Assembly: GCA_002698785.1 (NCBI GenBank)
Contig: PAAG01000028.1
Span: 1 to 64,000, forward strand
Origin: Verrucomicrobiales bacterium
GTDB taxonomy: Bacteria; Verrucomicrobiota; Verrucomicrobiia; Verrucomicrobiales; DEV007
DNA: 64,000 nucleotides
Direction of reading: 5' to 3'
The position numbers and the translations under genes are program-made. This document shows, one piece after another, positions 3,439 through 5,175 of this stretch. The notes under the pieces were generated by a model. It was not told the origin of the DNA and did not search any database. It saw nothing but the letters and a program-made list of their open reading frames with translations. The stretch's first letter is position 1, and every line of letters begins with the position of its first letter.

Positions 3439-4629
3439 TTACTTCCTCAAGTAAGCCCAGACAAACCCTGTTCGGTCTTCATTCAGGAATTCCGCCTTCT
3501 GGAAATAGAGATCTCTGAAAACCTCATTTCGCTTTTGGTTAGCCTCGTCATCCCCTTCCACATACGGCATCTGGCTAGCCTTATCCCATTTCTTCTGCCA
3601 TGCCTCACGCTTCTCTTCGAACTCGTTTTTTGACAGTCCATTAGCTATCGAAGCGAGAGCTACAGAATCCCCCAGCAGTAGGTCCGGTTTCCCGTCCTCA
3701 TTCAAATCAGTAGCCCAGACGCGCGTCGAATGCTGTGGCTTCTTCAGATCTTGCCATTTCAACAACTCGAAGCTGTTCTGGTAGCCACTTCCTTTGATCA
3801 AAGTTTGGAAGCCGGAAAACTCAGGCACTTTCCCTTCTTCGGCTATGTTCTCGGCCCACTGTGCACCACCTTGACTCGAACCACTTAACATATCCAGATC
3901 CCCGTCACCATCCCAATCCACAAGAAAGGGATCCCCGTGCGCTCCTTCGATTTTCAAAGGACCCGAGTCCGTTTCCAACATCTCCGGAACAGGGTCAAAC
4001 GCCCCCTCCCCTTGACCGGAGAACAGGTAAAAACCACCCTCAAAATTGCCCACTACCAGGTCAAGATCACCGTCGTGATCCCAATCGACTGCCCATGGTT
4101 TTGTACAAATACCTTTTACCCTTTCGTTATCTCCATTGTAGGGAATCTCCAAGGGCTTGCCATCAGTCCCTTCCAGAGGCTGCGCTTGGTTGAATTTACC
4201 TGCCCCTGCTCCCCACAAAACCTGAAACAATCCGGCCATCGGATTCCCATTTCGGGAATATGATCCAGAAAGAATATCAAGGTTTCCATCATCATTAAGA
4301 TCCACAACCTGTGGAGTCGAGCTGGTGCATCACCAGACTCCCGGAACCTCTGCAATCCTCCCTCCCGCCTCCAGCCAGCGGCCTTCTCCAAACTGTAAGC
4401 CTCCAAGATGAGGAAAAACCCGAATCTTCCCCTGAGCAAATTGCCCCACAAGTAACTCCTGTTTCCCGTCGCCATCATAATCCGCCAGACAGGGACTGGC
4501 ATACCCCGGCGACTCTACTCGGATCGGTTCTTCTCCTGCCATCAGCATGACCGGTTCTTCGAATTCAGCCGCTAGACTGCAAGTTGTAAGGGCAGCAAAA
4601 GCACCTGCCGCGACGAGTTTATCCTTCAT
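3439..4629 (-). CDS. Secreted FG-GAP/VCBS-repeat protein with in-frame TGA, predicted selenoprotein (Sec100)
   Basis: This is a 396-residue reading frame interrupted only by TGA at 4332-4330. The upstream part (residues 1-99) begins with a signal peptide (MKDKLVAAGAFAALTTCSLAA) and one FG-GAP repeat (DYDGDGKQELLVGQ). The downstream part stays in the same frame and continues DLNDDGNLDILSGS, DWDHDGDLDLVVGN, DWDGDGDLDMLSGS and DLNEDGKPDLLLGD, Ca-binding loops of a beta-propeller. The TGA lies in VPGVW-U-CTSSTPQ. From memory, homologues in PVC bacteria carry two adjacent cysteines here (GCC-x-GF-PQ), so TGA replaces a Cys and leaves a UC pair. A hairpin with a GGU loop starts 14 nt after the TGA. 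A nonsense mutation is the alternative, but the downstream coding sequence is intact. It lies 18 bp downstream of the other predicted selenoprotein. Confidence 0.78.
4299..4318 (-). promoter_or_regulatory. SECIS-like hairpin of the FG-GAP gene
   Basis: On the minus strand TCCACA-GGT-TGTGGA forms a six-pair stem with a three-base GGU loop. It is extended by GA/TC pairs around one bulged C at position 17 counted from the first base of TGA. The loop begins 20 nt after the TGA and its first base is G. Known bacterial SECIS elements need a small stem-loop within roughly 16-37 nt of the UGA with a G among the first two loop bases. The E. coli fdhF element has a similar bulge and a GGU-containing loop. 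Confidence 0.6.
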
Positions 4630-4647
4630 AAGTTCAATAATTTGAGG

Positions 4648-5175
4648 TTATTCCGCAGATTCGATGAGTTGAGAAACCTGGAAGACCAGCCGCGGTTCAC
4701 TGCCTTCCGCAAAAAGAGTCCCATCCGCTTTAAATATGCGGACAAAAGGCAAGGCTCCATTTCCACCTGGACCCGTTGACGCAAGATCGCCAAGCTCGTC
4801 ACGCCCCTCGAACTTCAGGGCCGGAAAAGGAATTTCCTGTTTCAGCAAATAATTTCGATTCGATTCTGCCGAATCGTCGTGCCCAACCAGAATGATCTGT
4901 ACGGACCGCTCGTTCTCAGGACGTTCCAAAACTTTTCTGTGGAGCGAAGCCAACTGCTTCGTAAAGGCTTTGCAAACGCCTCACCACGACGCCGAATGGT
5001 AGAATACAAAGTACTCAGGATCTCCGGTCAGCTCTACCTCCACTATCGACATCTCTTCGATCCCGACGAGCCTCCCCTTGAGAGATTCCGAGAGGTTTAC
5101 CGGATCATCAGAAAAAACATAAGGCACTGAAAACCAGACTACAAAAGACGTAGAAATAGAAAGAAAAGCCCTCAT
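4648..5175 (-). CDS. Secreted thioredoxin-like protein with in-frame TGA, predicted selenoprotein (WUGVC)
   Basis: From ATG 5175 the frame runs 175 residues with one TGA at 4983-4981. It starts with a signal peptide (MRAFLSISTSFVVWFSVPYV) and then a short linker. The active-site segment reads YFVFYHSASW-U-GVCKAFTKQL, which matches the thioredoxin/nucleoredoxin pattern SASWCxxCxxFTP with TGA at the first, nucleophilic cysteine. Downstream are the expected strand (SVQIILVGHD) and the cis-proline region (GALPFVRIFKADGTL). It is probably a periplasmic or surface thiol oxidoreductase. The gene leads an operon with the FG-GAP selenoprotein. An AGGAG lies only 2 nt before the ATG, so the exact start is uncertain (GTG 5178 is possible). 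TGA is an ordinary stop in neighbouring genes, so recoding must be local. Confidence 0.85.
4945..4961 (-). promoter_or_regulatory. SECIS-like hairpin of the thioredoxin-like gene
   Basis: The minus strand reads CGAAGC-AGTTG-GCTTCG, a perfect six-pair stem with a five-base loop. The loop starts 25 nt after the TGA and has G as its second base. This fits the published general description of bacterial SECIS elements (small stem, early loop G, 16-37 nt from the UGA). It differs in sequence from the hairpin of the next gene, as expected for elements constrained by separate coding sequences. Confidence 0.6.

Follow-up and report, generated by a model that had tools for sequence, protein, structure and literature searches.

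The closest described systems are the UxxC thioredoxin-like selenoproteins, several of which figure among the 119 selenoprotein families tabulated in a 2026 review (PMC13188914). The SECIS model in section 5 of that review has a loop of 3-9 nt, a stem of 4-16 bp, a distance of 16-37 nt from the UGA, a G in the first two loop positions and a minimum free energy (MFE) of -7.5 or lower; some putative SECIS elements are stated to lie outside the consensus model. No FG-GAP or VCBS family is present in its 119-family table, and the terms tryparedoxin, Verrucomicrob- and Planctomycet- do not occur in its main text. Selenoproteins and sel genes of Planctomycetes have been described in a separate paper (PMC4807772). 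A search of a library of open-access papers, supplements aside, found no paper on selenocysteine (Sec) with FG-GAP or with VCBS. Tryparedoxins are proteins of trypanosomatids. Together with ResA and plasmoredoxin, all with solved structures, they have in common with the thioredoxin-like protein described here the fold and the position of the WCxxC motif, and differ from it in carrying Cys where it would carry Sec.

The window, i.e., the whole stretch of 64,000 nucleotides analysed, encodes this Thioredoxin_8/tryparedoxin-like protein on the minus strand at 4648..5175, starting with ATG 5175 (alternatively GTG 5178) and ending with TAA at 4650-4648. The frame comprises 175 residues and its single interruption is a TGA at 4983-4981, which is codon 65 from the ATG and 66 from the GTG and is predicted to encode Sec (4981..4983, minus) from the codons of homologues and their association with selB. 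The surrounding peptide reads ...FYHSASW-U-GVCKAFTKQL..., giving the UxxC motif WUGVC. The initial annotation had placed a lone TGA at the first Cys of the C-x-x-C motif (W-TGA-GVC), which the reading of the frame bears out, and its frame at 4648-5175 exists, with the minus strand to be added, since it had been left unstated. Pfam Thioredoxin_8 (PF13905) matches the protein with 31.9 bits, above the gathering cut-off of 27, a tryparedoxin chain is matched among PDB sequences (E 3.3e-9), and the structure model (pLDDT 83) resembles tryparedoxins and ResA-type oxidoreductases. Both the C/UxxC motif and a Pro candidate for the cis-Pro position are present; U66, C69 and P144 are invariant in 14/14 rows of the homologue alignment, and we infer that P144 occupies the cis-Pro position. 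Identity across these 14 rows is 18-32%, so the TGA set includes paralogues.

As in the UxxC thioredoxins and thiol:disulfide isomerase-like selenoproteins listed in PMC13188914, Sec would stand at the first C-x-x-C position with the SECIS element right after the UGA; unlike the UxxC selenoproteins of that list, the window protein is nearest to Thioredoxin_8 and tryparedoxin. Among NCBIfam selenoprotein-type models at E<=1 it matched only NF053656 (redoxin_TUGYCR), with 17.6 bits against a curated cut-off of 100, and the motif of that family is TUGYCR as opposed to WUGVC. At E < 1e-3, two members of the thioredoxin alignment are matched by the TsoB selenoprotein model and one by the TUGYCR model. 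The N terminus contains a hydrophobic stretch that looks signal-like by eye, and the product is most likely exported and works outside the cytoplasm. The same genome contains a second Sec-thioredoxin (L087:1987-2679, on contig C34), of about 230 aa with the motif WUGPC and a longer N-terminal part, and a third thioredoxin match on contig C7 in a frame without a stop.

The genome, 7.0 Mb in 60 contigs with a completeness of 96%, carries the machinery for Sec insertion. The sel genes for which a search had initially been proposed are all present above curated cut-offs, namely selA (503.3 bits, cut-off 267.9), selB (290.4 bits, cut-off 242.25) and selD (391.9 bits, cut-off 125), together with a tRNA-Sec whose anticodon is UCA (59 bits, cut-off 47). 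The genes selD, selA and selB follow in this order on a single contig; selA and selB are separated by genes for an ABC ATP-binding protein and for a binding protein of the putative selenate ABC transporter family (L020:10867-11913; TIGR04553, 265.2 bits, cut-off 250). The selD frame (L020:13571-14644) also contains a TGA, at codon 22 (CAGU), and the loop of a hairpin begins 32 nt beyond it. Beside the tRNA-Sec are found a tRNA 2-selenouridine synthase (selU, above cut-off) and a NifS-like desulfurase.

A match to the thioredoxin-like protein was detected in 47 of 56 related genomes (the window's own included), and class-wide in 132 of 384 genomes at 1e-20. Codons were read in those matches that came with a locus, i.e., 30 loci plus L087 among the related genomes and 30 further loci in the class. 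In the first set the aligned codon is TGA in 15 copies and TGC/TGT in 16, and in the class-wide set TGA in 13 (one repeats the genome's second copy) and Cys in 17 (some of them repeats). The alignment of homologues, suggested at the outset as a check, puts TGA at the first Cys codon of the C-x-x-C motif in 25 genomes and TGC/TGT in 28 others. An above-cut-off selB is present in 24 of the 25 TGA genomes versus 2 of the 28 Cys genomes (G030 and G041), with a Fisher probability of 9.7e-12 that is uncorrected for kinship and overstates independence. In the sole TGA genome without selB at the cut-off (G033, completeness 80%), a tRNA-Sec match of 93 nt scores above cut-off. A tRNA-Sec of at least 89 nt occurs in 23 of the 25 TGA genomes and 4 of the 28 Cys genomes, this minimum being applied because matches of 82-88 nt (about 45-50 bits), which look like other long-arm tRNAs, occur also in genomes lacking selB; no match of this length was found in G004 and G026, both with TGA and selB. 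Two 95-nt tRNA-Sec matches lie about 0.7 kb apart in another genome (G011:C73:119883-120679). In two of the TGA copies (L125 and L132, from G355 and G296) the motif is STUGPC, with Thr replacing the Trp before Sec, and a scan of genome contigs with the thioredoxin protein yielded a single relative, a distant one with Cys, from Marivirga.

Behind the thioredoxin TGA lies the predicted SECIS hairpin CGAAGC-AGTTG-GCTTCG (4945..4961, minus), the loop of which begins 25 nt past the TGA; the distance of 19 nt, the 6-bp stem and the 5-nt loop AGTTG given in the initial annotation are confirmed at 4961-4945. With flanks its energy is -8.0 kcal/mol (z -1.95, 9 of 200 shuffles equally good) and bare -6.9, and with its loop of 5, stem of 6, loop start AG.., distance of 25 nt and energy of -8.0 it agrees with the model of PMC13188914 (section 5). 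The argument first put forward was that a random nonsense mutation would seldom hit this codon and have a hairpin after it. The hairpin by itself is weak evidence, as 440 of the 2132 TGA triplets on both strands of the window (21%) precede some model-fitting hairpin of at least 6 bp, whereas the comparison of homologues is strong. When the AGUU loop and the 25-nt distance, both taken from homologues before the window-wide count, are combined with 6 bp, a single TGA out of 2132 qualifies, which is the thioredoxin TGA itself.

The comparison covers 27 TGA copies (including the identical pair L125/L132 and omitting L107, a refetch of L087) and 27 distinct Cys copies (33 rows read, 6 identical removed). 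Of the 27 TGA copies, 26 have an AGUU loop that starts precisely 25 nt past the TGA, with at least 4 stem pairs in 23 and fewer than 4 in three; the other TGA copy (L032) has a shifted, GGUU-bearing hairpin 2 nt closer to the TGA. No AGUU loop at 25 nt occurs in the 27 distinct Cys copies, although in five of them 4 or 5 pairs are possible at that position, around a different loop. One Cys copy (L050, G028) encodes an identical APQLVEKY peptide via other codons, its loop being AACUC with 5 stem pairs still possible. Over the six stem pairs of the TGA copies, 91.7% of cells are paired and 5 of the 6 pairs have changed on both sides. None of 500 shuffles matches any of the five covariation measures, a test in which independence is overstated since the rows are related by descent, and sliding the partner brings pairing to 29-62%. 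The common form of the stem is CUCCAC/GUGGAG, from which that of the window gene, CGAAGC/GCUUCG, differs while keeping every pair. Because the AGUU loop is kept in the TGA copies and absent from the Cys copies, and because the stem covaries, this comparison of sequences indicates that the hairpin is selected as RNA.

Six Cys homologues from the same genus (G003, G005, G013, G015, G028 and G030) are without the AGUU hairpin. Genes of this kind, with a sense codon and no hairpin within the same species complex, had been named at the start as evidence against a selenoprotein, and the six touch on this point; the HSASWUGxCK-type matches (G004, G033 and G034) carry TGA in 3/3 cases. The six are 25-34% identical to the window protein, and five of them come from genomes without selB at the threshold, G030 having it. 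Since these homologues are distant and five of six lack selB, the pattern, as read from the codons, is one of Sec/Cys exchange and not a refutation. Two of the genomes concerned (G028, with L050, and G013) have a Cys thioredoxin and a 95-nt tRNA-Sec match, but no match to selB that reaches the threshold; they may have lost the Sec system recently, or the draft assemblies may have gaps. On the strength of the machinery, the conservation of the codon, the covariation of the hairpin and the association with selB, we are nearly certain that the thioredoxin gene is a genuine selenoprotein gene, in which Sec would be inserted at the UGA via SelB, tRNA-Sec and the hairpin.

The gene call made initially therefore holds for the thioredoxin selenoprotein and missed a second likely selenoprotein next door. 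Downstream, at 3439..4629 on the minus strand, lies a gene for an FG-GAP beta-propeller protein with a Sec-Cys dipeptide (PGVWUC), identified through Pfam, 11 TGA copies and a structure model. Its frame is split by one TGA (PGVW-U-C; 4330..4332, minus), the predicted Sec codon, which is also TGA in related copies. FG-GAP_3 (PF13517) matches with 85.3 bits (gathering cut-off 26.9), and at E<=1 no NCBIfam cut-off is reached; with the members of the FG-GAP alignment, four NCBIfam families were matched at 1e-3, none a selenoprotein by name. In the model (pLDDT 88) Sec100 and Cys101, both among the invariant residues, lie just ahead of the acidic calcium-type motif of the second FG-GAP repeat, and the N terminus again has a hydrophobic stretch that appears signal-like by eye. 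Foldseek and VIA-align place the model in a common propeller type (best Z 19.5, with a GH62 enzyme at 8% identity), a match that does not indicate the function. A conserved predicted SECIS hairpin, TCCACA-GGT-TGTGGA (4301..4315, minus), has its loop starting 20 nt past the TGA. Its energy of -7.1 kcal/mol (bare -5.7) lies above the MFE limit of the model in PMC13188914; the geometry of that model (loop GGU/GUU, 5-8 bp, 20 nt) is found in 10/10 FG-GAP copies.

Relatives of the FG-GAP protein were found in G031 (two), G033, G316, G072, G197, G312, G336, G402 and G543, the last belonging to a different class of the same phylum. They occur in 7 of 384 class genomes and 2 of 387 phylum genomes (the window's included in each), and the seven aligned to the window protein are 32-59% identical. 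All 11 copies that reach the Sec codon, from 10 genomes, have TGA there and a hairpin 20 nt behind it. The codons CCA, CAG and GTG are each identical in 10/10 copies compared, those just before them are near-fixed where the residue is identical (TCG 8/8, ACT 7/8), and at a greater distance synonymous codons vary. Covariation is weak here, the sole two-sided change being in G543, where the pair adjoining the loop is G-C and not A-U, a level that 44 of 500 shuffles reach. A SECIS pattern run over the 7.0-Mb genome gave two matches only, the FG-GAP gene and the second Sec-thioredoxin, both expected as the pattern was built from hairpins already seen; the stem of the window thioredoxin is unmatched by it. 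All seven class genomes with the FG-GAP gene fall within the 54 of 384 that have selB (p 7.7e-7); selB is also present in G031, and tRNA-Sec in G033 and G543. No Cys form of the family was found at E<=1e-30 in the 384 class genomes or at 1e-35 in the 387 phylum genomes, with up to four candidates per genome considered in each search. Many genomes contain weaker FG-GAP matches in frames that have no stop, some of which span the codon (e.g., G026, G005 and G029), so that a distant Cys form may exist; among viral contigs the FG-GAP alignment picked up a single distant relative. A fragment in G014 (L086) ends before the Sec codon, and in G033 (L085) and G312 (L100) the frames lose alignment past about residue 190-204, the remainder in G033 continuing in another frame, which points to either assembly error or decay. 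Taken together, codon and hairpin suggest that the FG-GAP propeller is likely a second selenoprotein. A codon-usage scan of the window for TGA-crossing frames ranked the thioredoxin gene 8 and the FG-GAP gene 15 of 176; since many antisense-looking frames outrank both, the scan says nothing either way about additional selenoproteins in the window.

Adjacent Cys and Sec are found in the GCUG tail of thioredoxin reductase, and to our knowledge the FG-GAP propeller fold is not known for thiol catalysis. By analogy, the adjacent Sec and Cys of the FG-GAP protein could form a selenenylsulfide. KCU-star, HgcA and SaoL (motif CU) have the neighbouring residues in Cys-Sec order, as opposed to Sec-Cys in the FG-GAP protein, an order that the latter shares with a CopZ-type 2Fe-2S protein (GxUC), and the table of PMC13188914 calls none of the four a beta-propeller. 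As that review lists UxxC thioredoxins and its table no FG-GAP family, and as the literature search was empty, the window thioredoxin is a new tryparedoxin-like branch of the known UxxC selenoproteins and the FG-GAP propeller appears to be a new, undescribed selenoprotein family.

The two genes are separated by 18 nt (4630..4647, minus), a gap without promoter- or terminator-like sites. The scan for such sites gave no excess over shuffles, and of the two terminator-like sites it returned, one falls within the thioredoxin gene (4876-4856). It is probable that both genes form one operon and are co-transcribed. In the proposed mechanism, SelB with Sec-tRNA-Sec would bind the AGUU-loop hairpin behind the UGA, so that Sec would be inserted as the attacking residue of W-U-G-V-C in a Thioredoxin_8-type thioredoxin fold. 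The product would act as a thiol/selenol:disulfide oxidoreductase outside the cytoplasm, with Sec66 (GTG 5178 numbering) attacking a disulfide or selenenylsulfide and Cys69 resolving the intermediate. The FG-GAP propeller is plausibly its redox partner, and the thioredoxin-fold protein may give electrons to, or take them from, the Sec-Cys pair of the propeller. Thiol/selenol exchange at the cell envelope is suggested by the signal-like N termini, by the fusion of an FG-GAP selenoprotein candidate in G336 (L102:4683-6656) to DsbD_N (57.8 bits) and PG_binding_1 (44.2), both above cut-off, and by the neighbourhood in G072 (L142), where a stretch of about 8 kb holds tRNA-Sec, selD, selA, selB, a UGPC redoxin and, convergent to it, the FG-GAP gene.

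We tentatively propose a two-selenoprotein envelope module in which the Sec-tryparedoxin would keep the FG-GAP propeller reduced and the Sec-Cys pair would be the active site of a new family without a thioredoxin fold, which at least one lineage would make as a fusion with an electron-delivery domain of DsbD type and another would carry within its sel cluster. Because the side-by-side arrangement is seen only in the window's genome and, differently arranged, in G072, we put the likelihood of this relay slightly below one half. A competing reading, to which we give a chance not quite reaching one in two, is that the adjacent selenoprotein genes are functionally unrelated and neighbours by chance. 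Of 9 FG-GAP loci (4.8-11.5 kb each), 8 showed no recognisable thioredoxin gene next to the FG-GAP gene; the neighbours were assessed by visual inspection of the N-terminal 90 residues of ORFs (at least 90 aa, cut at TGA), which split genes could escape, and a Pfam scan covered four of them. The two families also lie on different contigs in G033 and G031 and about 60 kb apart in G316. However, the window genes share a strand at a distance of 18 nt, and a Sec-redoxin adjoining an FG-GAP gene and the sel cluster in G072, as well as the DsbD_N fusion in G336, speak against coincidence.

For the thioredoxin gene itself, other readings of the TGA fare far worse. A pseudogene or sequencing error, with TGC/TGT mutated or misread as TGA in an ordinary thioredoxin-like gene, would take one base change, and the assembly is a 60-contig draft; however, the frame is otherwise intact and TGA recurs at this codon in 25 genomes (27 loci), followed by a hairpin that covaries, on which ground we reject this highly improbable reading. 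It is likewise very unlikely that the TGA is a regulated stop, yielding mainly a fragment of about 65 residues with Sec readthrough as a minor product: UGA recoding in E. coli is indeed partial, with 30-40% efficiency (PMC4513850), but here the UGA itself belongs to the conserved catalytic part, with the rest of UxxC and the invariant Pro144 following it. A genome-wide altered code, with TGA read as Trp or another residue, would explain frames open through TGA, but it is rejected as next to inconceivable, since TGA serves as the stop of 13 among the 35 long training ORFs in the window, in keeping with its initial description as an ordinary stop, a UCA tRNA-Sec and SelB are present, and the TGA stands at a Cys position with a conserved hairpin behind it.

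The preferred reading, a Sec-thioredoxin next to a likely Sec-propeller, has a bearing on both families. The mix of TGA and Cys codons tracking selB among the thioredoxin homologues represents a natural experiment on Sec/Cys exchange. The short frozen FG-GAP hairpin, CCACAGKUUGUGG, is a signature for detecting more members, and Sec codon and hairpin together can be written as the search pattern TGATGY-N12-CCACRGKTYGTGG. Finally, the standard code breaks both genes at TGA, and thus a possible redox pair is hidden behind two apparent stops.
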